NCBI RefSeq assembly: GCF_029265375.1
Contig: NZ_JAJUJJ010000015.1
Location: forward strand, 1 to 64,000
Direction: 5' to 3'
Source of the DNA: Nesterenkonia sp.
Lineage (GTDB): Bacteria; Actinomycetota; Actinomycetes; Actinomycetales; Micrococcaceae
Length of the DNA: 64,000 nucleotides
A program made the translations under genes and the position numbers. Below, piece by piece: positions 34,052 to 54,354 of the stretch (position 1 is the first letter of the stretch; each line of letters opens with the position of its first letter). The notes beneath the pieces are model-generated. The model was not told the DNA's origin, made no database searches, and worked only from the letters and a program-made list of their open reading frames with translations.

Positions 34052-35446
34052 TCAGGCGGCGGGGATCCAGTCCTGCGGGGCATCCACCACCGCGCGCAGG
34101 GCACGCAGCGCACCGCCGGTGGTGGCCGGGGCGTTGCCGGTGTCGCGCTGGCGGACGCTGAACTGGGTCCACGGCGAGGCCAGCACCCGGCGCTGCAGCT
34201 CCTCCTCGATGCAGGGGCGCAGCAGGTCGGTCAGCGGGCCGAACTCTCCGCCGAGCACCACGTCGTGGACGTCCAGCACGTTCATCGCAGCCGACAGCGC
34301 CACTCCCAGTGCCCAGCCGGCACGCTCCACCGCCTCGACTGCGGTGCTCGCTGCGCTCTCCGGGGCCGAGCACTGGGTGAGGACGTAGAGATCCTCCGCC
34401 GTCACCCCGGCCGGCAACCCGGCCGAGGCCATCAGCGCCCGCTTGCCCGCGTAGACCTCCAGGCATCCGGTGGAGCCGCAGCCGCACTCCGGCCCGTTGG
34501 GCTCGACTGCGACGTGGCCGATCTCCCCGCCCCAGCCGTGCGGACCGGCCTCTACCACTCCGTCGACCACCACGGCCGAGCCGATGCCCATCTGCGCGGA
34601 GACATAGAGGAACGTCTGCTCCTTATCCTCCTCGCGGGTCAGCTCCTGGGCCACCGCCAGTGCGGCGAGCTTGGCCTCATTGGCCGCCGTGATGAAGGAG
34701 CCGAAGCCCTCGTCGCCCTCGCCTGCCTCTGAGGCTCGGCCCAGCAGGGCGACGAGGTCCACGTCCTTCCAGCCCAGGTTCGGAGCCAGCAGCAGCGTGC
34801 GTTCATCAGAGTCCACCAGGCCGGGCACGGCCAGCACAGTTCCCACGGTGCGGGCCCCGGCACGGGCGGCCTCATCAGCCACCCGCAGCGCCAGCCGGCC
34901 AGCCTCCACCAGTACAGCGGCCGGATCGGAGGAGCGGTAGTCGGCCCAGATGATCTCCTCGGCCAGCACCGCGCCGGTCAGGTCCAGCGCCCGGGCGGCC
35001 ATGAAATCCACGTTGACCTCCACCCCCAGCCCCACCAGGGTGCGGCGGGCAGGTGTCAGCGGTACGGCCGGGCGCCCGCGGGTGCCGCCGACCACCGGGG
35101 ACCCCTCACACACGATGCCCGCGGCCAGCAAGTCATCGACCAGACGCGAGACGGTGGAGCGGGTCATACCGGTGCGGATGGACAGGTCGGCCCGGGAGAG
35201 CGCCTCCGTGGAGGCGAAGATCTCCTCGGTGATCAGCAGCAGGTTGGCCTCCCGCAGCGTCTCCTGCCGGGCCCCGGGGCGCAGCGCCTCGTGGTGCGGC
35301 GGCCGGTCGCGCCGCTGCGGGCGCTGAAAGTCGTGGCGGCCCTGCCCGTTGCTGCCGCCGTTGAGCCCGAAGGCGCGCGTCAGCGACCGCCGTCCCAAGC
35401 GCGCGAAGGAGCTGGGCGTCGTCGAACCGGCGCCGTTGCGAATCAT
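34052..35446 (-). CDS. xylR: ROK-family transcriptional regulator, XylR-like
   Basis: The 464-residue protein has a long basic N-terminus (about 65 residues), a winged helix (SRADLSIRTGMTRSTVSRLVDDLLAAGIV, GTRGRPAVPL) and a ROK domain with a sugar/zinc motif (GWGGEIGHVAV, CGCGSTGCLEVYAG). XylR-type ROK repressors release DNA on binding xylose or glucose (family knowledge). It is transcribed divergently from xylA over a 143-bp gap holding a dyad at 35477-35491. Its -10-like TAAGAT lies so close to the ATG that the mRNA may be leaderless. Confidence 0.88.
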   Translation of the reverse strand: MIRNGAGSTTPSSFARLGRRSLTRAFGLNGGSNGQGRHDFQRPQRRDRPPHHEALRPGARQETLREANLLLITEEIFASTEALSRADLSIRTGMTRSTVSRLVDDLLAAGIVCEGSPVVGGTRGRPAVPLTPARRTLVGLGVEVNVDFMAARALDLTGAVLAEEIIWADYRSSDPAAVLVEAGRLALRVADEAARAGARTVGTVLAVPGLVDSDERTLLLAPNLGWKDVDLVALLGRASEAGEGDEGFGSFITAANEAKLAALAVAQELTREEDKEQTFLYVSAQMGIGSAVVVDGVVEAGPHGWGGEIGHVAVEPNGPECGCGSTGCLEVYAGKRALMASAGLPAGVTAEDLYVLTQCSAPESAASTAVEAVERAGWALGVALSAAMNVLDVHDVVLGGEFGPLTDLLRPCIEEELQRRVLASPWTQFSVRQRDTGNAPATTGGALRALRAVVDAPQDWIPAA

Positions 35447-35450
35447 GGAC

Positions 35451-35479
35451 TTGATCTTAGCCCTACGAGCAATTAGGTT
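35451..35479 (+). promoter_or_regulatory. Probable xylA promoter
   Basis: TTGATC (35451-35456) and TAGGTT (35474-35479) are separated by exactly 17 bp. The -10 overlaps a dyad that would suit a repressor. Confidence 0.6.
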
Positions 35480-35491
35480 TCATCTAGAAAC
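35477..35491. promoter_or_regulatory. Candidate XylR operator
   Basis: The dyad GTTTC-ATCTA-GAAAC has perfect 5-bp arms and covers the end of the predicted xylA -10 and start site. The surrounding TTAGGTTTC is similar in style to XylR operators of firmicutes (TTAGTTTG...). Binding here would block xylA transcription. Confidence 0.65.
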
Positions 35492-35589
35492 AAAATGAGA
35501 CGCGGATCACCGGCCGCCGTCGTGCCCCCTCCGCTGGGGACATCGCGGCGATCCGTCTCGACTCGCCACCCTAACCTGTGGAGGAACCC

Positions 35590-36768
35590 ATGACATCGAC
35601 GCCTGCTGACTACAAACTCTCCTTCGGCCTGTGGACCGTCGGCTGGACCGCCCGCGACCAGTTCGGCGAGGCCTCACGGCCCGCACTGGAGCCCTGGGAC
35701 TACCTGCCCAAGCTCAAGGAGGCCGGCGCCTCCGGGGTGACATTCCACGACGACGACGTGGCACCCTTCGGCACCGACGACGCCGAGCGGGAGAAGTACT
35801 TCACCAGGTTCAAGGAGACCGCGGAGCAGGTGGGGCTGAAGGTGGAGATGGTCACCACCAACACCTTCTCCCATCCGGTGTTCAAGGACGGCGGGCTGAC
35901 CTCCAACGACCGGTCTGTGCGCCGCTTCGGCCTGCGCAAGCTGCTGCGCAATGTGGACCGGGCCGCAGAGTTCGGCGCGGAGACCTTTGTGATGTGGGGC
36001 GGGCGCGAAGGCTCGGAGTATGACAACGCCAAGGACCTCAACGCCGCCCACGAGCGCTACGCCGAGGGCGTGGACACCGTGGCCGCCTATATCAAGGAGA
36101 AGGGCTACGATCTGCGCATTGCGCTGGAGCCGAAGCCCAATGAGCCGCGCGGCGATATCTTCCTCCCCACCATCGGCCACGCCCTGGCTCTGATCGCGAA
36201 GCTGGACAACGGCGACATCGTGGGCCTGAACCCGGAGACCGGTCACGAGCAGATGGCCGGGCTGAACTTCACCCACGGCATCGCCCAGGCGCTGTGGGCC
36301 GGGAAGCTGTTCCACATCGACCTCAACGGTCAGCGCTCCATCAAGTATGACCAGGACCTGGTGTTCGGCCACGGTGATCTGATCTCCGCGTTCTTCACCA
36401 TCGACCTGCTGGTCAACGGCTTCCCCAACGGCGGGCCGCGCTACGACGGCTGGCTGCACTTCGACTACAAGCCCTCGCGCACCGACTACCTGGACGGCAT
36501 CTGGGACTCTGCCAAGGCCAATGCCGAGATGGTCACCATGCTGGCGGATAAGGCCAAGGCCTACCGCGCCGACCCGGAGGTGCAGGAGGCTTTCGAACAG
36601 TCCGGCATCTTCGAGCTGGCCGAGCCCACGCTGGCGGCCGGCGAGTCGATCAGCGATCTGCTCAATGACCGCAGCGCCTATGAGGACTTCGACCCGGAGA
36701 AGGCCGCGGAGCGGAACTTCGGCTTTGTCCGGCTCAACCAGCTGGCGCTGAAGCACCTGGTGGGCTGA
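35590..36768 (+). CDS. xylA: Xylose isomerase
   Basis: The start [10 protein letters not shown] follows GGAGGAA at a good distance. The 392-residue TIM-barrel has the expected active-site strands: [12 protein letters not shown] (catalytic His), [28 protein letters not shown] (metal ligand Glu), [22 protein letters not shown] (metal Asp) and [11 protein letters not shown]. Length fits class I actinobacterial enzymes. It converts D-xylose to D-xylulose. xylB follows after 156 bp. Confidence 0.96.
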
Positions 36769-36785
36769 GCGGCTCACCTGGCGAC

Positions 36786-36853
36786 GCGAGCGGCCGATGC
36801 GTGGACCGGGCCAGCGCTGTGGGCGTCGGCGAGGCCTCGCACTGGCCGCTCGC
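36786..36853. repeat. 10-bp inverted repeat between xylA and xylB
   Basis: GCGAGCGGCC (36786-36795) and GGCCGCTCGC (36844-36853) are exact complements with a 48-nt loop. It could partly terminate or protect the xylA transcript ahead of xylB. No T-tract follows. Confidence 0.5.
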
Positions 36854-36924
36854 TGTATGTTGAAGGCATGACCGTTCAGTTCCTGGTGGGAGTCCCCAGC
36901 GCCCGTTCTGCGAAGGAGTAACCC

Positions 36925-38370
36925 GTGGCAACGCTCGTGGCAGGCATCGATTCCTCCACTCAGTCCTGCAAGATCGTCATCCGCGATGCCGAGACCGGCG
37001 AACTGGTCCGTTCCGGCTCGGCGAAGCACCCTGACGGCACTGAGGTGAACCCGCAGGCCTGGTGGGAGGCGTTCCTGCAGGCCGCTGAGGCAGCCGGCGG
37101 CCTGGACGACGTTGCCGCCGCATCAGTCGGGGGCCAGCAGCACGGTCTGGTGGCCCTGGATGCTGAGGGTCAGGTGATCCGCGACGCACTGCTGTGGAAT
37201 GACACCCGCTCGGCCGAGGCGGCGGAGGCGCTGATCGCTGAGCACGGCGGCGCCGAGACCGGCAAGGCGGCCTGGGCGAGGATGGTCGGTTCGGTCCCGG
37301 TGGCCTCGCTGACGGTGACCAAACTGCGGTGGCTGGCCGACGCCGAGCCGGAGAACGCACAGCGCGTGGCCGCCGTCGCCCTCCCCCACGATTGGCTGAC
37401 CTGGAAGATCTCAGGAGCCCAGCGTCTGGAGGATCTGGCCACTGACCGGTCCGAGGTCTCCGGAACCGGCTACTACGACGCCGCGGCCGGCCAGTACCGC
37501 TATGACCTGCTGGCCCAGGCGCTGCGCATCAGCGAAGACCAGGCGCGCCAGATCATCCTGCCGAAGGTGGCCGGCCCCAGTGAGCAGGTCGGCACCGGTG
37601 ATGCGTCCCGGGGCTGGGGCGCGATGATCCTGGGGCCCGGCGCCGGGGACAATGCGACCGCTTCCCTGGGGCTGGGGATGAGCACCGGGGATGTGTCCAT
37701 CTCCATCGGCACCTCCGGTGTGGTCGCGGCGGTGTCTCCGCAGCCGATGCGGGATCCCAGCGGACTGATCGCCGGGTTCGCCTCAGCCACCGGGGAGTTT
37801 CTGCCGCTGGCGGTGACTCTGAATGGTTCGCGCGTGCTCGATGGGGCTGCCCGCATGCTCGGTGTGGACCACACCCAGTTGGCCGAGCTTGCGCTGCAGG
37901 CCGAGCCGGGAGCTCACGGGCTGACTCTGGTGCCGTACCTGGAGGGCGAGCGGACGCCGAACCTTCCGCGGGCCACCGGCTCCTTTGTGGGGCTCTCGCT
38001 GGCATCGATGAACCCGCAGGATGTGGCCCGCGCCGCGGTGGAGGGCCTGCTGTGCGGGCTCGCCGATGGTCTGGAGGCGATGACGGACCTCGGCGTACCG
38101 GTGAACTCCATCCAGCTGATCGGCGGAGCTGCGCGCTCGGCGGCGGTGCAGCAGATCGCCCCGGCGATCTTCGAACGCGATATCCAGGTTCCTGAGCCCG
38201 GGGAGTATGTGGCCGACGGCGCAGCCCGCCAAGCCGCATGGGTGCTCTCCGGGGCCGCGGAGCCGCCGCAGTGGACGGCGTCGTCGGTGACCACCTTCAG
38301 CGCCGAGCCCGCCCGGTTCGTCCGCGAACGCTACGCCGAGCGGCGCCATCTCTTCGCCGAACGGCCCTGA
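36925..38370 (+). CDS. xylB: Xylulokinase
   Basis: The 481-residue FGGY-family kinase starts at GTG after AAGGAG. N-terminal phosphate loop [15 protein letters not shown], the substrate loop [13 protein letters not shown] and [13 protein letters not shown], and the C-terminal FGGY-type [13 protein letters not shown] and [16 protein letters not shown] are all present. It phosphorylates D-xylulose to the pentose phosphate pathway. With xylA it completes xylose use. Confidence 0.94.
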
Positions 38371-38427: not shown

Positions 38428-38814
38428 CTAAACCCGGGCGTCACGTACCCACGGCAGTCCGAGGCTCAGCAGCGTCCGGTCTGAGGTGAGCAGGTCGAGG
38501 TTCTCCGCCTGGGCCTGCGCGAGGATCATCCGGTCAAAGGGATCATGCCGGGCAAGATCTGGGAAGTGCCGCATGGCCGCAATGTGGGCAGAACCGAGTG
38601 GGAGCTCCTCCAGCCCCGACCGGGGGAAGACGTCCGGAAAGTGCTCACCCCCGGGGAGACTGAGCTTACCGAGCATGTGCTTGATCTGAATCTCGGCGAT
38701 CGACACTCCGGAGAAGAAGGCGGTCCCGGCCTGGGTGATGTGCTCTCGCGCCTGGGCACCTAGATGAGAGCTGTCCGCATAGACCCAGAGCAGGGCATTT
38801 GTGTCCAGCAGCAT
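38428..38814 (-). CDS. PIN-domain toxin (VapC-like)
   Basis: The roughly 128-residue PIN RNase opens MLLDTNALLW with the first catalytic Asp, has GVSIAEIQIKHMLGKL (Glu) and HDPFDRMILAQAQ (Asp pair), and ends DLLTSDRTLLSLGLPWV. The order fits type II toxins that cut RNA. The initiating ATG can be 38817 or 38814, overlapping or touching the antitoxin stop at 38814-38816. It is paired with the upstream Phd-like antitoxin. Confidence 0.88.
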   Translation of the reverse strand: MLLDTNALLWVYADSSHLGAQAREHITQAGTAFFSGVSIAEIQIKHMLGKLSLPGGEHFPDVFPRSGLEELPLGSAHIAAMRHFPDLARHDPFDRMILAQAQAENLDLLTSDRTLLSLGLPWVRDARV

Positions 38815-39056
38815 CAAGGATTCTGCCCGTAGAACATGGCGTTGATCTCCTCATCCGGCCCGTCGAACACCTCGGGGTCTGGGAGCTGCTCCCCCCTGCC
38901 CAGGCCGAAGACCACCTGCTTGTCCTGATGAGGCACCAGATCAGCCACCGGAACACCGGCGCGGGCAATTGTCACCTTCTGACCTGCGACTACCTTCTCC
39001 ACTAGGGACGAGAGCTGCGATTTGGCCTCGTGCATGTTCACCTGGATACCCACCAT
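38814..39056 (-). CDS. Phd/YefM-type antitoxin
   Basis: The 80-residue protein has the Phd N-terminal DNA-binding pattern IQVNMHEAKSQLSSLVEKV followed by GQKVTIARAGVPVADLVP, then a variable acidic C-terminus (FDGPDEEINAMFYG) that would wrap the toxin. Its stop overlaps the toxin start. The ATG coincides with the predicted transcription start (leaderless). Confidence 0.88.
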   Translation of the reverse strand: MVGIQVNMHEAKSQLSSLVEKVVAGQKVTIARAGVPVADLVPHQDKQVVFGLGRGEQLPDPEVFDGPDEEINAMFYGQNP

Positions 39057-39096: not shown

Positions 39097-39840
39097 TCAG
39101 GCCTTCCAGGTCTGCAGGCGCCCGCACATCCCGTAGAGGCGGGGGCCGGGCTTGGGCTCGCCGCGAATGACGGAGGCCTCCCCCAGGTGGTGGCCGTCGC
39201 CTCCGGAGAGTGCGGCCAGCTGCTGCTGAACGCGGCGGGTCTCGGAGGCCACATTGGCCTCGAAGATCTCCTTCCAGCGCTCAGTCTTGAGCTGCACCAG
39301 GTTCACCGCGTGGCGGTGCAGCCGGCCCAGGGCCTCCTGAACGCCGTCGGACTCGATGGCGCTGAACAGCTGCTGGTAGCCCTGGAGGGCCAGGTCCCGG
39401 CGGGCGCGGGCGGCCTCGGCCTTGGCGTCCTCATCCTCCGGCAGAGCCACCGCAGCGGCGTACTTGTCCGGGTCGGCCAGGATCTCCTCCGGGAAGGTCA
39501 GCACCGCGTCCCCGGCCTCGGGCAGCCCGGCATTGGACATCACCACTGCCAGCTCCAGTCCGGAGTGGTTGACCAGGCGGTGCACCGTGCCGGGGGTGAA
39601 CCACAGCAGCGAACCGGGCTTCAGCTCATCGCGGGCGGGCCCGTCGGAGCTGACAGTGTGCACCTCACCCTCTCCGGCGGTGACCACGTAGGCCTCGGTG
39701 GAGAGGGTGTGCAGGTGGGGGGAGCCGCCGTGGAATCCGTCAGCGGCCTCCCAGTCGTAGACGCAGAGGTGGCTAACCGATGTGCCGCCGGGGAATCCCG
39801 GCAGCGCCCGGCTCACCGGTGAAGTGGGCTGTGCACTCAC
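39097..39840 (-). CDS. Cupin-domain protein
   Basis: The start is a GTG that overlaps the stop of the DUF6807 gene (GTGA), giving 247 residues; the longer open frame to 40008 is the opposite strand of that gene. The cupin barrel holds HLCVYDWEAADGFHGGSPHLH and TLSTEAYVVTAGEGEVH (metal-type His/Glu), and GSLLWFTPGTVHRLVNHS. The C-terminal half is helical (ALQGYQQLFSAIESDGVQEAL). It may be an isomerase or sugar-binding protein of the same pathway. Last gene of the minus arm. Confidence 0.8.
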   Translation of the reverse strand: MSAQPTSPVSRALPGFPGGTSVSHLCVYDWEAADGFHGGSPHLHTLSTEAYVVTAGEGEVHTVSSDGPARDELKPGSLLWFTPGTVHRLVNHSGLELAVVMSNAGLPEAGDAVLTFPEEILADPDKYAAAVALPEDEDAKAEAARARRDLALQGYQQLFSAIESDGVQEALGRLHRHAVNLVQLKTERWKEIFEANVASETRRVQQQLAALSGGDGHHLGEASVIRGEPKPGPRLYGMCGRLQTWKA

Positions 39841-40763
39841 AGTGCGTACTCCTTCGCCGTCGCGGTCAGTTCGTCTCCCTCCAACTGCCGGGCGACGAAC
39901 ACGAAGCGGTGGTTGAGGTTCAGCGTACCCTCGTGCGGCAGGTGAATCTCCTGGTCGAAGGCCGGGGAGGGGCTGGCGACGGCGAAGATGCCGGTGCGGG
40001 TGAACCACTTCACCGGGGGCACCTCGGTGTCCGGCGAGGCGGAGGTGCCGGAGTAGACCAGCACGGTGCCTCCGCCGTCGAGGTCATCGTGGGCCGAGGA
40101 GAACGCGACCCATTCGGACTCGGTGCCCATAATCTCGGCCTCATCGCTCAGCCCGGTGGCTGAGGTGATCGCGCAGCCGTTCCATGCCCGGGGGCCGCGC
40201 CAGAACCACCCGGTGTAGCCGGCGTTGGGGCGCCCGGCGGTGGTGGGGCTGCCCAGGTCGATGGTGCTGCCGCGCACGTTGGTGATGGAGGTGGTCAGGT
40301 CCACCGCCCAGACTCCGCGGTGGAGGTCCAGGGAGTGGATCCGCTGGATGCGGTGCTCATCGATCCAGTGCTCCCCGGCCGCGGTGATCCACTGCAGGTC
40401 CTCATCCAGGACGACGTCGTCGCCGCCGGTGGGTTCGGAGCGGAAGCGCAGGTGCTTCATGGTGCCCAGGTTGTCCTTGTCCACGTACCACTGGGTCTCT
40501 TTGTCGAAGCTGCCTCCGCCCCAGAAGTTCTGGTCGTCGACGTGGGACCAGGTGAACTGCAGGCCGGTGTGCCACCGGTGGTCCCAGGGACGGCGGATGG
40601 AGGCTTCGCCGCCGTCGGTGAACCTCAGCGGGTAGAGATAGGGCTTGGGCGCCTCATCCTGCGGAGAGTTGGGGTCTGTCTCATAGCGGGCGATCTCCAC
40701 CTCACCGGCGCGCACGCCGATGGTGGCGCCGCCGTCGTGGTGCTCAACCTCGAAGCTGGTCAC
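39837..40763 (-). CDS. DUF6807/PmoA-like protein
   Basis: The 308-residue protein starts with a GTG that overlaps the oxidoreductase stop (GTGA). Its features, YLYPLRFTDGGEASIRRPWD, HHTGL-like RWHTGLQFTWSHV, NFWGGGSF and GRPNAGYTGWFWRGPRAW, match the DUF6807 family, which accompanies sugar oxidoreductases in actinobacterial catabolic operons. It has no signal peptide and looks like a beta-sandwich. Biochemical role is unknown. Confidence 0.8.
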   Translation of the reverse strand: MTSFEVEHHDGGATIGVRAGEVEIARYETDPNSPQDEAPKPYLYPLRFTDGGEASIRRPWDHRWHTGLQFTWSHVDDQNFWGGGSFDKETQWYVDKDNLGTMKHLRFRSEPTGGDDVVLDEDLQWITAAGEHWIDEHRIQRIHSLDLHRGVWAVDLTTSITNVRGSTIDLGSPTTAGRPNAGYTGWFWRGPRAWNGCAITSATGLSDEAEIMGTESEWVAFSSAHDDLDGGGTVLVYSGTSASPDTEVPPVKWFTRTGIFAVASPSPAFDQEIHLPHEGTLNLNHRFVFVARQLEGDELTATAKEYAL

Positions 40764-41857
40764 TGGGGTCCTCCGTAGACGTAGTTCTCATCATGCATGC
40801 CGGTGTAGTAGATGCCGTCCTTGGTCAGCTCGCTGCGGCGCACCCGCTGGCCGGTCTCGGCCGACTGGTAGAGAGCGGCGATGAACTCCAGAGTGCGCCG
40901 GCCGTCGTGCCCGGAGGCGCGCGGGCGGACCCCGGACTCCATGGCGTCGAGCAGCTCAGCCAGCTGCTGCTTATGCGAGCTGGGGATGTTCTCCTGCGGG
41001 GCCCACGACTCCACTGCGGCGGTGTCCTCGGCCCGGTGGGGGGCCGGCGTCCACCGCCAGGAGGAGTTGTCATAGCCGTAGAGGTGCTCCACCTCCACGG
41101 TGGCGTCCTGGAAGTCGAAGCGCAGGTAACTGGTCTCCCGCGGGGAGAGAACCGAGTTGACGATGGAGGCCATCGCGCCGGATTCGAACTTCACCACCGC
41201 GAAGGAGACGTCCTCGGTCTCGATGTTCCGGTCCAGGGTGTCGGCCATAGCGGTGACCTCGGTCCAGTCGCCGAGCACCTCGAAGAGCAGGTCCATCTGG
41301 TGGATGCCGTGGCCCATGGCCGGCCCGCCGCCCTCGGTGGCCCACTTACCGCGCCAGGGGACGTCGTAGTAGGCGTGGGGCCGGTACCAGAGGGTGTTGC
41401 ACAGCGCCACCAGCGGCTTGCCGAGGCTGCCTTCGGCCACATGCTTCTTCAGCGCAGTCGCTCCGGAGCCGAAGCGGTGCTGGAACACATAGCTGGCATA
41501 GGGGCCGCCCTCACGCTCATAGGCCTCCACCTCGTCATAGTCGGAGAGGGTGAGCATCGGCGGCTTCTCGCACCAGACCCACGCGCCGGCCTGCAGGCCC
41601 TTGATCACGGCCTCCTTATGCGCCGAAGGGGGCGTGCACACAATGAGCAGATCCGGCTTCTCCGCCTCCAGCAGCTGGTCCACGTCGGTGTGCCGCCCGG
41701 GGATGTTCCACTCCTCGGCGACCTTGACCACGGCCTCTTCGTTGATATCGGCGATGGCAGCCACCTCCACGCGGTCCTGGTGCGCCTTCAGCGTGGGCAG
41801 ATGTGCAATGGTGGCAATTCCGCCGGCTCCGATGATGCCGGCCCTGATTTTGGACAT
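40760..41857 (-). CDS. Gfo/Idh/MocA-family oxidoreductase 1
   Basis: The 365-residue NAD(P)-dependent enzyme has the Rossmann start GIIGAGGIATIAHLPTLKAH, VCTPPSAHKEAVIKGLQAG and the catalytic-type EKP motif (WCEKPPML). The C-terminal beta sheet domain includes HGIHQMDLLFEVLGDW. It likely oxidises a sugar or its derivative to a keto form. First gene of the minus arm; a LacI-type operator lies 44 bp upstream. Confidence 0.9.
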   Translation of the reverse strand: MSKIRAGIIGAGGIATIAHLPTLKAHQDRVEVAAIADINEEAVVKVAEEWNIPGRHTDVDQLLEAEKPDLLIVCTPPSAHKEAVIKGLQAGAWVWCEKPPMLTLSDYDEVEAYEREGGPYASYVFQHRFGSGATALKKHVAEGSLGKPLVALCNTLWYRPHAYYDVPWRGKWATEGGGPAMGHGIHQMDLLFEVLGDWTEVTAMADTLDRNIETEDVSFAVVKFESGAMASIVNSVLSPRETSYLRFDFQDATVEVEHLYGYDNSSWRWTPAPHRAEDTAAVESWAPQENIPSSHKQQLAELLDAMESGVRPRASGHDGRRTLEFIAALYQSAETGQRVRRSELTKDGIYYTGMHDENYVYGGPQ

Positions 41858-41900
41858 ATGACAGACTCCTTAGACGCCGTGATCCGCTTCACAGCCTAAA

Positions 41901-41914
41901 GGAAAACGTTTACC
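41901..41914. promoter_or_regulatory. LacI-type operator 1
   Basis: GGAAAACGTTTACC (reverse GGTAAACGTTTTCC) has the central AACGTT dyad typical of LacI-family operators. It sits between the divergent oxidoreductase and LacI genes and differs at one position from the site at 43179-43192. Confidence 0.85.
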
Positions 41915-41998
41915 CTATGCAATGACCACCTTATGCCACCCGGCGGCCGGCGTGAGCGCCTGCCGAATCCGACGCCGAAACGACCTGCAGGAGCCGCT

Positions 41999-43027
41999 AT
42001 GCCGCACAGCACCCACGTGACCCTGGCCCAGGTGGCCGCGGCCGCTGGAGTCTCCATCGCCACCGCATCCCGAGCCATCAACGGCAGTACCCGCAAAGTC
42101 AGCGAGGATATCCGCCAGCGGGTGGCGCAGACCGCCGAAGAGCTCGGCTACCTGCCGAACCTCTCCGCCCAGACGGTGGTCAAGGGGGCCGCCCCGGTGG
42201 TGGCGGTGCTGGTCAGCGATATCGCCGACCCGTACTTCAGCTCCATCAGCGCCGGGGTGATGGCCGGGGCCCGGGAGGCTGGGCTGATGGTCACCATGGC
42301 CACCTCGGAGCGCCGCAGCGAGGATGAGCTGGAGATGATCCGCACCTTCCGCGCCCAGCGGCCGCGGGCGATCATTGTGGTCGGCTCCCGGCAGGAGCCC
42401 GATGAGCGGACCGCCGAGATTGAGAACCAGCTGCAGACCTACCGGGACTCCGGCGGCCACGTGGTGCTCATCTCCCAGGGCCCCTCCCCTTTCGACCTGG
42501 TGGAGATCCAGAACTACGACGGCGCCAAGCAGCTGGCTCATGCGCTGGTGGACCGCGGCGGGCGCAGCTTCGGCATCGCTGCCGGCCGGCGGAGCCTGCG
42601 CACCAACGTGGACCGGATCGCCGGGTTCACCGACGGGCTGGCCGAGCGCGGTCTGAGTCTGGCCGACGGCGCGATCGCCGAGGCGCCGTTCACCCGCGAC
42701 GGCGGCTTCACCGCCATGACCGAGCTGCTGGGCCGCCGCGAGGAGCTTCAGCTGGACACCGTCTTCGCCACCAGCGACCTGATGGCCTTCGGGGCCGCCA
42801 CCGCTATGCGCTCAGCCGGTGTGATCCCGGGGCAGGACATCTCCCTGGCGGGATTCGACAACATTGCCCTGGCCGAGGACGTCACCCCGGCGCTGACCAC
42901 CGTGGACGTCCCCCTCGAAGAGGCCGGCTACCGCGCGGTGAAGCTGGCTTTGGCCGAGGATCCCGCACCCGAGAGCCTCCAGCTGGGAACCTCGGTCATC
43001 CTGCGCGGTTCCACTCCGCAGCGCTGA
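41999..43027 (+). CDS. LacI-family transcriptional regulator
   Basis: The start MPHSTHVTLAQVAA follows CAGGAG; the open frame to 41933 lacks a site. The 342-residue protein has the LacI headpiece (VTLAQVAAAAGVSIATASRAI with hinge region RQRVAQTAEELGYLPNLSA) and a periplasmic-binding-like sensor domain (VLVSDIADPYFSSISAGVM, VFATSDLMAFGAATAMR). It probably represses both arms of the surrounding sugar cluster and itself, through the operators at 41901-41914 and 43179-43192. Confidence 0.93.
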   Translation: MPHSTHVTLAQVAAAAGVSIATASRAINGSTRKVSEDIRQRVAQTAEELGYLPNLSAQTVVKGAAPVVAVLVSDIADPYFSSISAGVMAGAREAGLMVTMATSERRSEDELEMIRTFRAQRPRAIIVVGSRQEPDERTAEIENQLQTYRDSGGHVVLISQGPSPFDLVEIQNYDGAKQLAHALVDRGGRSFGIAAGRRSLRTNVDRIAGFTDGLAERGLSLADGAIAEAPFTRDGGFTAMTELLGRREELQLDTVFATSDLMAFGAATAMRSAGVIPGQDISLAGFDNIALAEDVTPALTTVDVPLEEAGYRAVKLALAEDPAPESLQLGTSVILRGSTPQR

Positions 43028-43178
43028 GCTGCGCGCCTGCGCCGACCTTGGCGGCGCCGACCGTCCTGGGTCTGCGCCGCGCGGCCCTCTCGCCCCCGGC
43101 AGGCCCAGCCGCCCGCCGTCTTGTGACCCTTCACTCCCCCGACCCCCGTTGCTCCGCATGACGGTCTGCACTTGCGCC

Positions 43179-43192
43179 GGTAAACGCTTTCC
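43179..43192. promoter_or_regulatory. LacI-type operator 2
   Basis: GGTAAACGCTTTCC matches operator 1 in 13 of 14 positions when that is read on the opposite strand. It lies 105 bp before the plus-arm oxidoreductase gene. Confidence 0.85.
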
Positions 43193-43296
43193 CATACGCT
43201 GTGACTCACGTCACCGATGACTTGCCGGCCGCTGCCGGCCTGACCTGAGAACGCATTCACCACGTATTCACGCGCTGAAGCAGAACGGATGGGGAC

Positions 43297-44484
43297 ATGA
43301 CCGCAGAACCCCTTGGCATCATCGTCAACGGCGCCACCGGGCGCATGGGCTACCGTCAGCACCTAGTGCGCTCCCTGCTGGCCCTGCGCGACGAGGGCGG
43401 GGTGCCGCTGCCCGATGGCAGCCGCCGCCCCATCGAGCTGCTGCTGGTGGGCCGCAACGCGGAGAAGCTCGCCGAAGTCTCAGCCGCCCACGGCATCGAG
43501 CGCTGGACCACCGACCTGGACGAGGCCCTGGCTACCGAGGGCTTCCCCATCTACTTTGATGCACTGATCACCCAGCTGCGCGTACCGGCCATCCGCAAGG
43601 CCATCGCAGCCGGCAAGCACATCTACACCGAGAAGCCCACCGCCGAGTCCTATGCGGAGGCGCTGGCACTGGCCGAGGAGGCCGAGGCCGCCGGCATCCA
43701 CAACGGGGTGGTGCACGACAAGCTCTACCTGCCCGGACTGCTGAAGCTGCGCCGTCTGATCGACTCCGGCTTCTTCGGCGAGATCCTCTCGGTCCGCGGC
43801 GAGTTCGGCTACTGGGTCTTCGAAGGCGACTGGCAGCCTGCCCAGCGGCCCAGCTGGAACTACCGAAGCGAGGACGGCGGCGGCATTGTGGTGGACATGT
43901 TCCCGCACTGGAACTACGTCATCGAGAACCTCTTCGGTCAGATCGAAACCGTCTACACCACCACCCGCACCCATATTCCGCAGCGAGTCGATGAGTCGGG
44001 CAAGACCTACACCGCCACCGCCGACGACGCCGCCTACGCGATCTTCGAGCTGCAGGACGGCCCGCTGGTGCAGTTCAACTCCTCCTGGACCACTCGGGTG
44101 AACCGCGATGAGCTGGTGGAGCTGCATGTGGACGGAACCCGCGGCTCCGCCGTCGTCGGCCTGTTCTCCGCCAAGATCCAGGAGCGCAACGCCACCCCGA
44201 AGCCGGTGTGGAACCCGGATATCCCCGATCCCATCGACTACTCCGCCACCTGGCAGCCGGTTCCGCAGAACGAGGAGCCGGAGAACGGCTTCAAACTCCA
44301 GTGGGTGGAGTTCCTGCGCTCGGTACTCGGCGCCGGGGAGCACCGCTTCGACTTCCGCTCCGGAGCCGCCGGCATGCTGCTGGCCGAGGCCGCGCTGGCC
44401 TCCCACGAGCAGGGCCGCCGCGTCACGCTGACTGAGCACGCCCAGGCGCTCTCCGCCGGCGCGGGGAAGGAGGCCGGAGCATGA
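43297..44484 (+). CDS. Gfo/Idh/MocA-family oxidoreductase 2
   Basis: The 395-residue protein begins PLGIIVNGATGRMGYRQHL, a Rossmann loop of GxTGxxG type, and has IYTEKPTAESYAEALALAEE (the EKP motif) and YLPGLLKLRRLIDSGFFGEI. GGGIVVDMFPHWNYVIENLFG is the substrate-side segment. It is clearly divergent from oxidoreductase 1, so the two probably act at different steps. First gene of the plus arm, overlapping the next by ATGA. Confidence 0.9.
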   Translation: MTAEPLGIIVNGATGRMGYRQHLVRSLLALRDEGGVPLPDGSRRPIELLLVGRNAEKLAEVSAAHGIERWTTDLDEALATEGFPIYFDALITQLRVPAIRKAIAAGKHIYTEKPTAESYAEALALAEEAEAAGIHNGVVHDKLYLPGLLKLRRLIDSGFFGEILSVRGEFGYWVFEGDWQPAQRPSWNYRSEDGGGIVVDMFPHWNYVIENLFGQIETVYTTTRTHIPQRVDESGKTYTATADDAAYAIFELQDGPLVQFNSSWTTRVNRDELVELHVDGTRGSAVVGLFSAKIQERNATPKPVWNPDIPDPIDYSATWQPVPQNEEPENGFKLQWVEFLRSVLGAGEHRFDFRSGAAGMLLAEAALASHEQGRRVTLTEHAQALSAGAGKEAGA

Positions 44485-45683
44485 GCACCGATCCGCTGAG
44501 CACCCGTAGTGAGACCGGACTGCAGCTGCGGCTCATCGACGCCGACCGCCAGCTGGTCACCGCCCCGCTGCTGAGCGCACCGGACTTCCGCCGCCCTGAG
44601 CAGCCGCTGTCCTCCCGGACCCTGTTCGCCGCCGCCCACGTGGTGCCCGACCCGCTGAGCGAGACGGTGCCGGGCGAACCGGCGGAGCTGGACTGGGACG
44701 CCACGCTGAACTACCGGCGTCAGCTGTTCTCCTGGGGACTGGGTGTGGCCGACGCCATGGACACCGCCCAGCGCAATATGGGGCTGGACGCCGAGGCCAC
44801 CCGGGAGCTGATCGCTCGCTCGGCGGCAGTGGCCAAGGAGGAGGGCGCCTCGGTGGCCGTGGGCGTCAACACCGACGCCCGCACAGAGCAGGACTTGACC
44901 CTGGATGAGATCGAAGCCGCCTACCAGGGCCAGCTGAGCTTCGCCGAGTCCCGCGGCGCCATCCCGGTGCTGATGGCCTCCCGCCATCTGGCGCGCGCCG
45001 CCCGCGACGCCGAGGACTACCGGCGAATCTACGGCAGCCTGCTGCAGCAGGCCCAGACCCCGGTGATCATCCACTGGCTGGGCGAGGCATTCGATCCGCA
45101 GCTGCGCGGCTACTTCGGCTCCACCGACTGGCGCCAGGCGGCCGAGACGCTGATCAGCATCATCGAGGCCCACCCGCAGAAGGTCAGCGGCGTGAAGATG
45201 AGCCTGCTGGACGCCGAGGCGGAGAAGGCAGTGCGTGCACGGCTGCCGGAGACCGCAACTATGTTCACCGGCGATGACTTCAACTACGTGGGCCTGATCG
45301 ACACCGACGACGACGGCCGCTACTCCGACGCCCTGCTGGGCGCCTTCAGCGTGCTGGCACCGAATGCCTCAGCCGCAGTGCAGGCCCTCGACGCCGGAGA
45401 CCATGATCTGTACCGGCGGATCCTGCTGCCCACCCAGGAGCTGAGCCGGCAGGTCTTCGCCGTGCCGACCTTCTACTACAAGACCGGGGTGGCCTTCCTC
45501 TCCTGGCTCAACGGTCACCAGGCCAGCCCGGCGATGGTCGGCGGCCTGCATGCCGCACGCAGCCTGCCGCATCTGAGCCGCATCGTGGAGCTGGCCAATG
45601 ACTGCGGCGCACTGGAGAAGCCTGAATTTGCCCACGCCCGGTGGCACCAGCTGCTGGATCTGCATGGAATCGGAGGCGCCTGA
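44481..45683 (+). CDS. DUF993 TIM-barrel protein (dihydrodipicolinate-synthase-like)
   Basis: The 400-residue protein overlaps both neighbours by stop-start sharing (ATGA before, TGATG after). It has LNYRRQLFSWGLGVADAMDT, ASVAVGVNTDARTEQDLTL, TPVIIHWLGEAFDPQLRGYF and KVSGVKMSLLDAEAEKAV, where the Lys of KMS is in the place of the Schiff-base Lys of aldolase-type TIM barrels (inference). DUF993 proteins occur with Gfo/Idh/MocA enzymes. A carbon-carbon bond cleavage (aldolase or retro-aldol) role is plausible but unproven. Confidence 0.8.
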   Translation: MSTDPLSTRSETGLQLRLIDADRQLVTAPLLSAPDFRRPEQPLSSRTLFAAAHVVPDPLSETVPGEPAELDWDATLNYRRQLFSWGLGVADAMDTAQRNMGLDAEATRELIARSAAVAKEEGASVAVGVNTDARTEQDLTLDEIEAAYQGQLSFAESRGAIPVLMASRHLARAARDAEDYRRIYGSLLQQAQTPVIIHWLGEAFDPQLRGYFGSTDWRQAAETLISIIEAHPQKVSGVKMSLLDAEAEKAVRARLPETATMFTGDDFNYVGLIDTDDDGRYSDALLGAFSVLAPNASAAVQALDAGDHDLYRRILLPTQELSRQVFAVPTFYYKTGVAFLSWLNGHQASPAMVGGLHAARSLPHLSRIVELANDCGALEKPEFAHARWHQLLDLHGIGGA

Positions 45684-46549
45684 TGAGCAGCGCACACCCT
45701 CGCCTGTCGCTGAACCAAGCCACCATCAAGCACGCGTCGCTGGACCAAGCCCTGAAGGTCACCGCCGAGGCGGGGATCGGCAGCATCGGGCTGTGGCGCG
45801 AACCGGTGGCGGAGGTGGGCCTCGAGGCGGCCTGCGCTGCGCTGCGCAGCTCTGGGCTGCGCTTCTCCAGCCTGTGCCGCGGCGGCTTCCTCACCACCGA
45901 TGACGACGAGGAGTTCGCCGCCTCTGTGGAGGACAATAGGCGCGCCATCGAGGAGACCGCCGCCCTGGCGGAGGCTGGGGCCGACGGCTCGGCACCGGTG
46001 CTGGTGCTGGTGGCGGGAGGCATACCGGCCGGCGGAACCATCGAGGCCGCCCGGCAGCGATTCTTCGACGGGCTGAGTCAGCTCATCCCGGCTGCAGCCG
46101 GGGCCGGGGTCACCCTGGCGATCGAGCCGCTGCACCCGATGTACGCCTCAGACCGGGCCGTGATCTCCACCTTGGCGCAGGCCCTGGACCTGGCCGAGGA
46201 GACCGCGTCGCAGCACGTCGGTGTGGTGGTGGACTCCTTCCACATCTGGTGGGACCCGGCAGTCTATGCCCAGATCCGCCGCGCTGGTGCGGCCGGGCGC
46301 ATCGCCACCTACCAGGTCTGCGACTGGCGCACACCGCTGGAAGAGGACGTGCTGCTGAGCCGCCATCTCCCCGGCGACGGCGTCATCGACTTATCTGCGA
46401 TGACCCGGGCGGTGGAGGACACCGGCTACCGCGGCGATATTGAGGTGGAGATCTTCCACGCAGCCATCTGGGACCAGGACCCCGCCGTCACCGCGGCTCG
46501 CACCGCTGAGGCCTTCAGCCGCTCGGTCGCCCCTCATCTGCGCGGCTGA
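45683..46549 (+). CDS. Xylose-isomerase-like TIM-barrel (sugar phosphate isomerase/epimerase)
   Basis: The start MSSAHPRLSLNQATIKHASL lies within the previous stop. The 288-residue protein has TIM-barrel signature segments VTLAIEPLHPMYASDRAVIS (metal Glu), HVGVVVDSFHIWWDPAVYA (metal Asp/His), YQVCDWRTPLEED and GDIEVEIFHAAIWDQDP (metal Glu). The family isomerises or epimerises sugars and keto-sugars. Last gene of the plus arm; the IS30/IS3 scar begins 28 bp later. Confidence 0.86.
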   Translation: MSSAHPRLSLNQATIKHASLDQALKVTAEAGIGSIGLWREPVAEVGLEAACAALRSSGLRFSSLCRGGFLTTDDDEEFAASVEDNRRAIEETAALAEAGADGSAPVLVLVAGGIPAGGTIEAARQRFFDGLSQLIPAAAGAGVTLAIEPLHPMYASDRAVISTLAQALDLAEETASQHVGVVVDSFHIWWDPAVYAQIRRAGAAGRIATYQVCDWRTPLEEDVLLSRHLPGDGVIDLSAMTRAVEDTGYRGDIEVEIFHAAIWDQDPAVTAARTAEAFSRSVAPHLRG

Positions 46550-46576: not shown

Positions 46577-46699
46577 GATCCCGGTGGCGATGTGCTTCCA
46601 GAACTCTCGTTCGACCTCCTGCCGATGAGACGGAGCCCCCGGCGACTTCATCGCTGAACGGCCTGTGAACTGTTGCACCCATGCTGATGGTCTTCCCAT
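46577..46699 (-). pseudogene. IS30-family transposase, N-terminal scrap
   Basis: The minus strand gives the same MGRPSAWVQQFTGRSAMKSPG...IATGI start as the element at the window's left edge, then breaks off at 46577 into unrelated DNA next to the isomerase stop. Only about 40 codons remain, so it is dead. A deletion must have removed the rest of the transposase. Confidence 0.8.
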
Positions 46700-46748
46700 T
46701 GCACACCTCCATGATCAAGGTGTTGCTACGACCAGTTGAATCCGAGCA
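46577..46748. repeat. 172-bp repeat, copy B (IS30 5' end)
   Basis: This is the second copy of 83-254, same orientation, one visible mismatch. The right boundary, like copy A, falls at the codon before QY of an IS3 transposase tail, but a different IS3 type. Confidence 0.9.
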
Positions 46749-47055
46749 ATACACGTCGTTGGCCTTCACCGAGGCGCTGGCCGAGGCAGGCATCACCGGG
46801 TCCATCGGATCAGTCGGGGACGCGCTGGACAATGCGCTGATGGAGTCCACGATCGGGCTCTACAAGGTCGAGGTCATCGACCACGAGAGGTCCACCTGGT
46901 CCTCGTGGAGACAGGTCGAGGCCGCCACCGCCGAGTGGGTCTACTGGTACAACCACCAACGCCTGCACGGCGGCCTCGCAGACATCCCCCCGGAGGAGTT
47001 CGAGCAGGCCTACTATGATGCTCACCAAGACCGCAGCAACACCGCTGCAGCCTGA
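46747..47055 (+). pseudogene. IS3-family transposase (OrfB), C-terminal fragment B
   Basis: From QYTSLAFTEALAEAGI through VGDALDNALMESTIGLYK and WVYWYNHQRLHGGLADIPP the sequence is another IS3 OrfB C-terminus. It retains the third catalytic Glu (ALMES) but differs strongly from fragment A, so it derives from a different IS3 subgroup. The frame upstream of QY is IS30 DNA. Non-functional. Confidence 0.87.
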
Positions 47056-48561: not shown

Positions 48562-50931
48562 TCAGCTGATGCGCGCCGGCGTGGTCATCACCCGATCTCC
48601 GGTGACCTCGCGGGTCTGGCCCACCAGCAGCAGCTCACCGGACAGGGGCAGGTCCCCGGACGAGGGGCCGACCCAGATGTCGATCGCACCGGGCTCCACA
48701 ATGCGGGTGTAGTCCAGCCCGGTGAAGGCGAAGCGGTCTGCGTGCACCCAGAAGGTGACCTCCTTGGTCTCCCCGGGCTGCAGCTCAACCCGCGCGTAGG
48801 AGAGCAGCTGGCGCACCGGCCGTGCCACCTGGGCGTTGCGGTCTCCGAAGTAGATCTGCACCACCTCGCTGGCCGGCCGCTGCCCCGTGTTGGTCACCCG
48901 GGCGGAGATGTTCACCGTCCCGTCCACCGCGATCTCCTCAGACTCGATGGACAGGTCGGAGTACTCCACAGTGGTGTAGCTCAGCCCGTGCCCGAAGGGA
49001 TACAGCGGTGTCGGGTCCAGATTGGAGACTCCCTGGCTGTTCTGGCCCAGGGGCGCGGCGATGTAGCCGGAGGGCTGGCCACCCGGTGCGGCGGGAATGC
49101 TGATGGGCAGCCGGCCGGCGGGTTCGGCGGTGCCGGTGAGCAGATCCGCCACAGCAGGGCCGCCCTCCTCCCCGGGGAAGAAGCCCTGCACAATGGCTGC
49201 GCACTTCTCGGCCACGTCACCCAGCGCGTAGGGGCGCCCGGAGATGACAACCAGCACAGTGGGAGTGCCGGTGGCCAGCACTGCCTCCACCAGCTCCTGC
49301 TGCGCCCCGGGCAGACGCAGGTCCTCTGCATCGCATCCTTCGCCGGATGTGCCGGCGCCGAACATGCCGGCCACGTCTCCGACCGTCACCACGGCCATAT
49401 CAGCTTCCGCTGCAGCCCGGGCCGCCTGCTCGATCTGCGAGGCGTCGTGCTCCACAATCGCCGCGCCGACGCTGTAGGTGACCTCCGAATCGGCGTAGGC
49501 CTGCCGCAGCGATTCCAGGATTGTGGGCATCGGCAGACCGATTCCCTTGTGCGGGAATGTGCCGGCCGGATACTTCGCCAGCACGTGGTTGGGGAAGGAA
49601 TAGCAGCCCATCATGGTGCGCGGCTCATCCGCCGAGGGGCCCACCACCGCGATCCGCTTGCCGGCCAGCTCCTCAGGAGCCGCCGGCAGTGTGCCGCCGT
49701 CGTTCTTCACCAGCACCAGCGACTCGGCGGCCACCCGGCGGGCCAGGCGCCGGTTGGACTCCGAGTCCAGATCCACCGACTCGTCGATCTGAGGCTGCCA
49801 CGGCTTTCCGTCCTCGGTGAGGTCCAGCAGACCCAGCTCCACCTTCTGACGCAGCACCCGCCTCACCGAACGGTCGATCACGGCCTCGTCGATGCGTCCC
49901 TCGCGCACCTGCTGGGAGAGAGTGCGGTAGCCGCCGGTGTGCGGAAGCTCCACATCCAGCCCGGCGGAGATCGCCAGCCGTGCGGCGTCGGCCTGGTCGA
50001 CTGCCACCCGGTGCATCTTCTCCAGGAAGGCTACGGACCAGTAGTCGGCCACGACTGTGCCGTCGAAGCCCCACTGGTCCCGCAGCACGTCGGTGAGCAG
50101 CCATTTCGACGCCGCCGGCGCCTCGCCGTCGATGTCGGCATACGAGTTCATCACTGAGCCGACCTTGCCCTCGCGGACTGCCATCTCAAAGGGGAAGAAG
50201 ATCAGATCCATCAGCTCGCGGCGGCCCATATGCACCGGGGCGTGGTTGCGGGCGGCCCGGGATGCCGCGTAGCCGGCGAAGTGCTTGAGGGTGGCGATGA
50301 TTCCGGCTGACTGCAGACCTTTGACGTAGGCGGTGCCCAGTGTGCCCACCACGTAGGGGTCCTCGCCCATCGTCTCCTCGACCCGGCCCCAGCGTGCGTC
50401 GCGGACCACGTCCAGCACCGGGGAGAGGCCCTGCTGGACGCCGGTGGCGGCCATATCCCGCCCGATGGCCGCGGCCATCTGCTCGATCAGCTCCGGGTTG
50501 AAGGTCGCGCCCCAAGCCAGCGAGGTGGGGTAGACCGTGGCCTGATAGGCGGTGTAGCCGGTCAGGCACTCCTCGTGGGCGATGGCAGGGATGCCGAACC
50601 GGTTGGCCTCCACAATGGCGGCCTGCCGTCGGCGCAGATCAGCAGCCCCCTCCGGCACCGAGAGCGCGACGGTGCCGTAGGTTCTGGTCAGGTGGCCTTC
50701 GCCGTCGACGATCTCGCGCTCGAAGGGCAGTTTGCCCGAGGACATGGCGTCCTCCATGGGAGCGACTTCGCCCTGAGCCTCCTCATCCTCGCGCATCTCC
50801 CAATGCGAGCCGAGCTGGGAGACCTTCTCCTCCAGGGTCATCTGGCCCAGCAGGGACTCCACCCTCTCGTCGACGGGCAGTTCGGGGTCGTTCCACGGTC
50901 CGGTCACATGTTCGGCCGCACGCTGGGTCAT
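48562..50931 (-). CDS. GH3 glycoside hydrolase (beta-glucosidase/beta-xylosidase type)
   Basis: The start MTQRAAEHVTGPW follows AAGGAGA. The 789-residue enzyme has an N-terminal (alpha/beta) barrel with LLGQMTLEEKVSQLGS, GIPAIAHEECLTGY, SPVLDVVRDARWGRVEETMGE, LKHFAGYAAS and the nucleophile region GTVVADYW (Asp near residue 296). A second domain follows (AVVGPSADEPRTMMGCYSF) with a fibronectin-III-like C-terminus (LQPGETKEVTFWVH). No signal peptide, so it is cytoplasmic. It likely trims imported oligosaccharides; xylan or glucan are both possible. It is downstream of the importer genes on the same strand. Confidence 0.93.
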   Translation of the reverse strand: MTQRAAEHVTGPWNDPELPVDERVESLLGQMTLEEKVSQLGSHWEMREDEEAQGEVAPMEDAMSSGKLPFEREIVDGEGHLTRTYGTVALSVPEGAADLRRRQAAIVEANRFGIPAIAHEECLTGYTAYQATVYPTSLAWGATFNPELIEQMAAAIGRDMAATGVQQGLSPVLDVVRDARWGRVEETMGEDPYVVGTLGTAYVKGLQSAGIIATLKHFAGYAASRAARNHAPVHMGRRELMDLIFFPFEMAVREGKVGSVMNSYADIDGEAPAASKWLLTDVLRDQWGFDGTVVADYWSVAFLEKMHRVAVDQADAARLAISAGLDVELPHTGGYRTLSQQVREGRIDEAVIDRSVRRVLRQKVELGLLDLTEDGKPWQPQIDESVDLDSESNRRLARRVAAESLVLVKNDGGTLPAAPEELAGKRIAVVGPSADEPRTMMGCYSFPNHVLAKYPAGTFPHKGIGLPMPTILESLRQAYADSEVTYSVGAAIVEHDASQIEQAARAAAEADMAVVTVGDVAGMFGAGTSGEGCDAEDLRLPGAQQELVEAVLATGTPTVLVVISGRPYALGDVAEKCAAIVQGFFPGEEGGPAVADLLTGTAEPAGRLPISIPAAPGGQPSGYIAAPLGQNSQGVSNLDPTPLYPFGHGLSYTTVEYSDLSIESEEIAVDGTVNISARVTNTGQRPASEVVQIYFGDRNAQVARPVRQLLSYARVELQPGETKEVTFWVHADRFAFTGLDYTRIVEPGAIDIWVGPSSGDLPLSGELLLVGQTREVTGDRVMTTPARIS

Positions 50932-51048
50932 AGTCAGTCTCCTTCGTTCTGGTTCCAATGGCCACTTGTGCCGCTAATTCCCGCGCGTGCGGCGTCAATC
51001 AGCGGCAGAAATGACCGGTGCAGCGGGAGCGGGCGCTCGGGTGTGCAT

Positions 51049-52912: not shown

Positions 52913-52950
52913 ACGAAGTTGGTCGGTGCCTTTCGGCTCTCAGGCCCGCA

Positions 52951-54234: not shown

Positions 54235-54354
54235 CGTGTTATTCCTTTCTCCATGTCGCAGGTCCCGCACCAGGACGGCGGCGCGACGGTCCGTCTACCA
54301 GGCCCGTCAGTCGCGCGCGCTGGGGTGGGACGCTGCAGGTTACGAGTGATCCCT

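Follow-up and report, generated by a model that had tools for sequence, protein, structure and literature searches.

What does a set of seven genes, arranged around a single LacI-type regulator in a genome of Nesterenkonia sp., allow its bearer to consume? The genes lie between positions 39097 and 46549 of the window, by which is meant the whole stretch of 64,000 nucleotides that was analysed (contig NZ_JAJUJJ010000015.1 of assembly GCF_029265375.1, positions 1 to 64,000). A preliminary description made from the sequence had proposed a two-armed pathway for an uncommon sugar or glycoside, with oxidation to a keto-sugar, isomerisation and cleavage. The observation is real and stronger than was stated there, with co-regulation of both arms by the LacI protein well supported by operator comparisons and with three of the enzymes, GfoB, DUF993 and TIM, forming a conserved trio that had been overlooked. 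The proposed enzyme route is plausible and stands in part: co-regulation holds and the idea of a lyase is strengthened by a predicted fold of the dihydrodipicolinate synthase (DHDPS) type with an invariant lysine on strand 6, whilst the trio, a glycerate kinase and a candidate third arm had been missed.

On the plus strand the regulator (41999-43027, PF00356 and PF13377 over cut-off, with the start at 41999 favoured over an alternative at 41933 by the onset of the helix-turn-helix domain) is followed by the plus arm. The first gene of this arm is gfoB, which encodes a Gfo/Idh/MocA dehydrogenase by Pfam (43297-44484, matching PDB entry 3oqb at 1.7e-133), then comes the DUF993 gene (44481-45683, PF06187 at 6.9e-157, matching 4dnh), whose product is a putative Schiff-base lyase of the DHDPS fold by its predicted model, and then the gene for TIM, a xylose-isomerase-like barrel of the AP_endonuc_2 family and putative sugar isomerase or epimerase (45683-46549, PF01261 at 3.8e-36). 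The minus arm is transcribed in the order GfoA, a second Gfo/Idh/MocA dehydrogenase (40760-41857, PF01408, PF22725 and PF02894 over cut-off), DUF6807 (39837-40763, PF14100 at 5e-59) and a cupin-domain protein (39097-39840, Cupin_2 at 1e-07). The open reading frames (ORFs) and Pfam matches thus agree with the positions and families first given for all seven genes, and GfoA and GfoB, with about 21% identity, are distinct enzymes, as had been claimed. The tight coupling by GTGA/ATGA overlaps holds at three of the four junctions, both of the minus arm being 4-bp GTGA overlaps and that of gfoB with DUF993 a 4-bp ATGA overlap, but the DUF993/TIM junction is a 1-bp overlap, TGATG.

Near-identical 14-bp operators had been reported before both arms. 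Operator 1, GGAAAACGTTTACC (41901-41914), is 44 bp from the start of gfoA and 85 bp from that of lacI, and from its place between them can serve both; operator 2, GGTAAACGCTTTCC (43179-43192), is 105 bp from the start of gfoB. Within the window GGWAARCGYTTWCC has two exact matches, and four at up to two mismatches against 0.51 expected, a number reached by none of 100 shuffles. The sequence GGNAARCGYTTNCC is found without mismatch at just two sites in the whole 2.72-Mb genome, which are operators 1 and 2. Allowing up to one mismatch, GGWAARCGYTTWCC occurs at four places genome-wide (the two window operators and one site each on contigs C6 and C24), with none for the reversed-pattern control. 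The C24 site falls within the ORF of a LuxR-type regulator and was taken as chance.

Relatives were compared in 80 loci (labelled L below), chosen as the 80 best among 485 genome relatives of DUF993 and for the greater part from Microbacteriaceae, with flanks of up to 10 kb and with any match within that stretch counted as in the locus. In 77 of 79 loci an exact operator is found at most 260 bp ahead of the GfoB match, and the 1.64 Mb of the 80 loci hold 81 exact sites in total. Relatives of both GfoA and DUF6807 share the locus with the trio in six cases, from Demequina (L041, L055), Agromyces (L022), Glaciibacter (L059), Arthrobacter (L080) and Microbacterium (L038), and in all six a site with at most one mismatch stands 66-142 bp before the first minus-arm match. 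Because the genome has this pair of operators nowhere else, and because such sites recur before both arms of relatives, co-regulation, on which the preliminary description had staked its interpretation, is well supported. A palindromic operator ahead of the targets and kept across relatives is what a local LacI regulon has, and LacI is predicted to bind it.

The trio itself is widely conserved. By tblastn DUF993 and TIM are present in 80 of 80 loci and GfoB in 79; GfoB stands immediately before DUF993 in 71 and DUF993 before TIM in 74 when the match ends are required to lie within 150 bp, with nine loci (one of which, L021, begins inside the module) and six loci respectively failing this test. 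Elsewhere in the locus are a LacI relative in 67 cases (at least 38% identity), glycerate kinase in 47, GfoA in 14 (at least 35% identity), DUF6807 in six and the cupin in five (46-58% identity). The closest loci are those of two Nesterenkonia, with 79 and 78% identity for DUF993 and 89 and 88% for GfoB. In a sample of the phylum a DUF993 match was found in 24 of 296 genomes, the present one included, and of the other 23 all were compared apart from G013, G227 and G294 (excluded for a short contig, a fragment and a weak match); the order and strand of GfoB-DUF993-TIM are kept in 20 out of 20, with LacI near the trio in 17, glycerate kinase in six and DUF6807 in three. Beside some Microbacterium modules are galactose genes with an adjacent LacI of their own, which were for this reason counted as probable mere neighbours. 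One locus, of Herbiconiux moechotypicola (L069:10001-11206), has an in-frame stop in its DUF993 match and no operator before GfoB, which may mean that the copy is decaying or that the assembly is wrong there. Sites resembling the operator, with one mismatch, also occur near NMT1/THI5-type ATP-binding cassette (ABC) transporter genes beside the module (L004, L006, L007, L009-L011, L013, L047, L053, L065), an odd partner for a sugar regulon.

What, then, might DUF993 do? Its AlphaFold2 model (mean predicted local distance difference test score, pLDDT, 88.3) is a (beta/alpha)8 barrel, for which the best Foldseek match in the PDB is 4dnh (SMc04132 of Sinorhizobium meliloti), with ranks 2-50 nearly all DHDPS or N-acetylneuraminate (sialic-acid) lyases (NAL) at E values of 1e-9 to 4e-8, target TM-scores of 0.66-0.81 and identities of 10-16%. 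Enzymes of the DHDPS/NAL superfamily carry a Schiff-base lysine on strand 6 and a GxTGE-type carboxylate motif after strand 2. In the model Lys239 lies in strand 235-241, which is the sixth barrel strand once the N-terminal strands 11-19 and 25-31 are discounted, and thus in the position of the putative Schiff base. It is invariant in 114 of 114 DUF993 sequences (42 to 79% identity), together with D94, Q97, R98, S167, R168, H198, W199, D205, D265, D266, Y269, Y333 and K334. The carboxylate motif was not found after strand 2 of DUF993, where residues 88-97 read GVADAMDTAQ against GTTGE in the DapA and GGTGE in the KdgD of the same genome, and in Pfam PF06187 alone matches, with no match of PF00701 at E<=0.001. 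With an invariant Lys239 on strand 6 and no carboxylate motif, the model suggests that DUF993 is a Schiff-base lyase of a neutral keto-sugar. A Micrococcales subfamily that includes the window protein has D91/N130/H169/F212/H357 where many others have E/G/A/W/Q, substitutions that possibly reflect another substrate.

A DHDPS fold would also suit a sugar-acid pathway, in which GfoB would oxidise an aldose or uronate and DUF993 would act like KdgD, a 2-keto-3-deoxygluconate aldolase or an L-2-keto-3-deoxyarabonate dehydratase and convert a 2-keto-3-deoxy acid to pyruvate or alpha-ketoglutarate semialdehyde. A structure of the last of these, 7c0c, is at Foldseek rank 49, and in L135 KdgD, an enolase-type dehydratase and an aldehyde dehydrogenase belong to the same co-directional run as the trio. 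However, DAMDT replaces the strand-2 motif, and a separate KdgD coexists with DUF993 both in L135 and in the genome studied here, where it is on C6, which makes this pathway quite improbable.

The Rossmann and C-terminal domains of the Gfo/Idh/MocA family are found, with the EKP lysine in GfoB. At least 97% of 103 sequences keep its E112-K113-P114, D200 and H204, which are presumably catalytic as in the family at large. The nearest solved structures for GfoA are 3q2i/3q2k and then the DgpA entries. No NCBIfam model matched by GfoA or GfoB reaches its cut-off, including levoglucosan dehydrogenase (NF052479, 49.6 and 60.3 bits respectively against 650) and myo-inositol 2-dehydrogenase (TIGR04380, 102.8 and 54.8 bits against 355), and UDP-GlcNAc dehydrogenase identity is ruled out by its cut-off in the same way. 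The structural relatives of TIM are 7vpf, 3ju2 (SMc04130) and 3qc0, with IolI (1i60) at 7e-07; E148, D184 and E256 are invariant in 110 sequences, and Q211, a histidine in 11 of them, is at what we take from IolI to be the fourth metal position.

Such matches might indicate a cyclitol pathway, with the Gfo enzymes as inositol dehydrogenases and TIM of the IolE/IolI type, since IolG is the best named model for GfoA and TIM aligns with IolI. The scores for both dehydrogenases nevertheless stay below the IolG cut-off, no further iol-type model exceeds its cut-off among the seven genes, and many relatives are accompanied by glycosidases and sugar transporters; a cyclitol as the substrate is therefore very improbable.

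DUF6807 is predicted to be mostly beta (AlphaFold2 model, pLDDT 85.6), with R58, D61, H62, H65, N79, E136, R138 and R178 invariant in seven sequences, and the open-licence PMC literature holds a bare mention of its number only. It is a possible 3-keto-glycoside cleaving enzyme. A second DUF6807, with 25% identity to that of the window, is found on contig C6 (L143:77-1006) beside a permease/Gfo3 operon, and it is there that the one-mismatch operator-like 14-mer GGAAATCGCTTTCC stands 91 bp before a run of genes for two permeases, a long Gfo/Idh enzyme (Gfo3) and an NAD-epimerase-family protein. Close to this run are a binding protein, an MGH1-like glycosidase and an enolase-type dehydratase. Among 116 loci, the trio shares its locus with a homologue of Gfo3 (at least 50% identity) in 11, of the epimerase protein in eight and of the dehydratase in nine. 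In L134 and L135, which belong to a different family within the phylum, permeases, binding protein, Gfo3, GfoB, DUF993, TIM, epimerase-type protein and dehydratase follow each other in this order on one strand, and the region ahead of the permeases has an exact operator together with a 14-mer identical to the C6 site. By NCBIfam one protein of the L135 run is a KdgD, exceeding the cut-off of PRK03620, and another is of the aldehyde dehydrogenase type but reaches none of the cut-offs shown; a protein of L134 exceeds that for glycerate kinase. As the same 14-mer precedes the L134 and L135 permeases, which form one co-directional run with the trio, a third arm of the regulon, unlinked to the other two, is probably present on C6, with sugar permeases, Gfo3 and the epimerase-type protein.

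The wider surroundings of the module bear on its substrate. In L041, L022 and L059 the minus arm is extended, according to the cluster labels, by a gene resembling GH43 and by those of a sugar ABC transporter; the binding protein is confirmed in L041, and a GH43 match over the Pfam cut-off is found in L017. In N. ebinurensis (L003) an exact operator directly 3' of the trio is followed by permeases, a binding protein and a GH43 xylosidase-type gene. In the window the place of this operator and transporter is occupied by an integrase fragment of the insertion-sequence type (rve_3, 46681-47055), immediately 3' of the TIM gene. A permease of the N. ebinurensis type was looked for in the genome studied here, which gave only paralogues (12 matches, 23-31% identity), and the transporter may have been lost at the integrase site. 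Related loci also have glycosidases of the GH51, GH43, GH35, GH95 and alpha-galactosidase types and sugar ABC transporters.

Closer at hand, a xylose locus adjoins at 34052-38370 with a ROK regulator, xylose isomerase (xylA, TIGR02631) and xylulokinase (xylB, TIGR01312), both enzymes over cut-off. At 48562-54270 are a GH3 enzyme, scoring 1014 against a cut-off of 1050 for the xylosidase/arabinosidase model of NCBIfam, and a sugar ABC transporter, with no operator match at up to two mismatches. A short ORF at 38428-38817 on the minus strand, beginning MMLLDTNALLWVY, presumably encodes a PIN/VapC-type toxin. Taken by their family assignments, the glycosidases of related loci and the local xylA/xylB and GH3 point to pentose-, galactose- or uronate-rich glycans of plants, without naming the substrate.

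An alternative is an oxidative deglycosylation like that of the Lgd or BT2156-2159 systems, whereby GfoA would make a 3-keto-glycoside that is cleaved, TIM would hydrate a glycal and GfoB would reduce the 3-keto-sugar to an aldose feeding xylA/xylB or glycolysis, with DUF993 a lyase or hydratase and not a retro-aldolase. The two Gfo enzymes and the TIM isomerase resemble LgdA/LgdC/LgdB as described in the available part of PMC7676230, and xylA, xylB and the GH3 gene adjoin. Yet a DUF993 tightly linked to GfoB and TIM and a recurrent glycerate kinase would be needless for a plain reduction to aldose, the levoglucosan dehydrogenase scores are far below cut-off, and PF06439 (DUF1080) has no match among the seven genes, so that this scheme appears unlikely.

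Glycerate kinase, which the preliminary description had overlooked, is judging by gene neighbourhoods a frequent partner; it is annotated in six of 15 annotated plasmid regions (L096, L097, L098, L101, L115, L118), and the genome studied here has a single copy, on C6. The plasmid contexts come from 16 of 147 records, one of which (L120) has no annotation, in a gene table that describes itself as incomplete. DUF993, there annotated as a dihydrodipicolinate synthase family protein, is carried without a GfoB relative, and mostly with TIM, by plasmids of rhizobia, Rhodococcus, Caballeronia and Janthinobacterium. In L098-L101, L103, L115 and L117-L119 DUF993 is beside CoA-transferase, acyl-CoA dehydrogenase, SDR, ETF or GMC genes, which is chemically puzzling. 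Because DUF993, mostly with TIM, stands there with other oxidation genes, the two look like a core around which the oxidation steps may be exchangeable.

How might these pieces work together? In the best reading, a tentative one with somewhat less than even chances, a regulon repressed by LacI would serve the oxidative catabolism of a glycoside of plant origin or an uncommon sugar. From the gene content, operator sequences, conservation and predicted fold we infer its repression, substrate, reactions and their order. At the front end, pairs of a Gfo/Idh enzyme and a DUF6807 protein (GfoA with DUF6807 in the window, Gfo3 with the second DUF6807 on C6) would oxidise a ring hydroxyl, probably at C3, and open the glycosidic bond. 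At the back end GfoB, the metal-type TIM isomerase and DUF993 would oxidise, isomerise and split the resulting keto-sugar, with DUF993 as a DHDPS-fold lyase working via Lys239 on a neutral carbonyl, and one product would pass to D-glycerate and via glycerate kinase into glycolysis. LacI would repress both arms, lacI itself and the unlinked C6 permease/Gfo3 operon. A bolder version, of doubtful standing, would extend this to an undescribed carbon pathway shared by Actinomycetota and Pseudomonadota, with DUF993 as a new kind of DHDPS-fold enzyme whose lysine splits a neutral keto-sugar, not a 2-oxo acid, to a C3 unit that becomes glycerate, fed by interchangeable Gfo and DUF6807 pairs with DUF6807 as a new 3-keto-glycoside-cleaving family.

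Several points weigh against the proposed regulon and route. The C6 operator has one mismatch and a different LacI protein could use it, no operator was found upstream of GfoB in two of 79 loci (L019, L069), and glycerate kinase was not found within the flanks of 33 of the 80 loci. The PDB and NCBIfam searches gave no close characterised homologue for any enzyme of the set. The cleaving role of DUF6807 rests on gene context, and the link of DUF993 to the DHDPS superfamily is by fold only, with no sequence match to DapA or KdgD of the same genome in hhalign, whilst the model is of low confidence at segment 329-333, Y333 included. Glycosidases of differing families accompany the module, so that they single out no substrate, and the GH43-like matches in L041 and L059 fall short of the Pfam cut-off. 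Nor does the proposed route explain the acyl-CoA dehydrogenase, SDR, CoA-transferase or GMC genes that some relatives carry in place of GfoB.

The system is nonetheless a well-defined orphan pathway, a three-enzyme block in fixed order across a phylum with a strict operator and with homologue structures solved for all three enzymes, for which no function was found. The regulon points to the repressor, the transporter and glycerate as the likely exit metabolite, so that the substrate is directly screenable. If the proposal is true, DUF993 and DUF6807 gain functions and the DHDPS fold extends to a new substrate class.

How does the set compare with known systems? DUF993 was not found in the open-licence PMC literature; the parts available of two S. 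meliloti sources list SMc04132/SMc04133 as unnamed genes in a table (PMC12542648) and include SMc04134 in a network study (PMC11387232). The solved near homologues of DUF993, TIM and GfoB, namely 4dnh (SMc04132), 3ju2 (SMc04130) and 3oqb, have molecule names that state no specific function, names alone being compared. In the same literature 3-keto-glucose with Gfo was not found, and among the matches listed none fitted a glycerate kinase with a DHDPS-family protein or a LacI regulon of such type. Chemistry of 3-keto-glycosides is already known from PMC7676230, PMC10628242 and PMC9007349, as far as the accessible portions of these go, with precedent for 3-keto-glycosides made by Gfo enzymes in the first and for a Gfo reductase in the second.

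The accessible portion of PMC7676230 describes a levoglucosan Lgd cluster in Bacillus smithii with two Gfo/Idh enzymes, the TIM isomerase family, LacI and sugar ABC transporter genes. The window set shares the two Gfo/Idh enzymes, TIM isomerase family and LacI, but has one AP_endonuc_2 TIM instead of two, has DUF993, DUF6807 and a cupin in addition, and stays under the levoglucosan dehydrogenase cut-off. With the BT2156-2159/DUF1080 pathway for 3-keto-glycosides, as presented in the sections of PMC9007349 at hand, it shares Gfo dehydrogenases and a partner, here putative, that cleaves glycosides, but Pfam gives no DUF1080 among the seven genes, and the BT_2158/2159 models match only Gfo3, weakly (26.3/25.3 bits against cut-offs of 750/650). 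With the DHDPS/NAL superfamily DUF993 shares the fold and the lysine on barrel strand 6, but it is about 100 residues longer and is without the carboxylate motif and without a PF00701 match. The local LacI sugar regulon is a known kind of system, here with an orphan enzyme of possibly new chemistry, DUF993, at its core.

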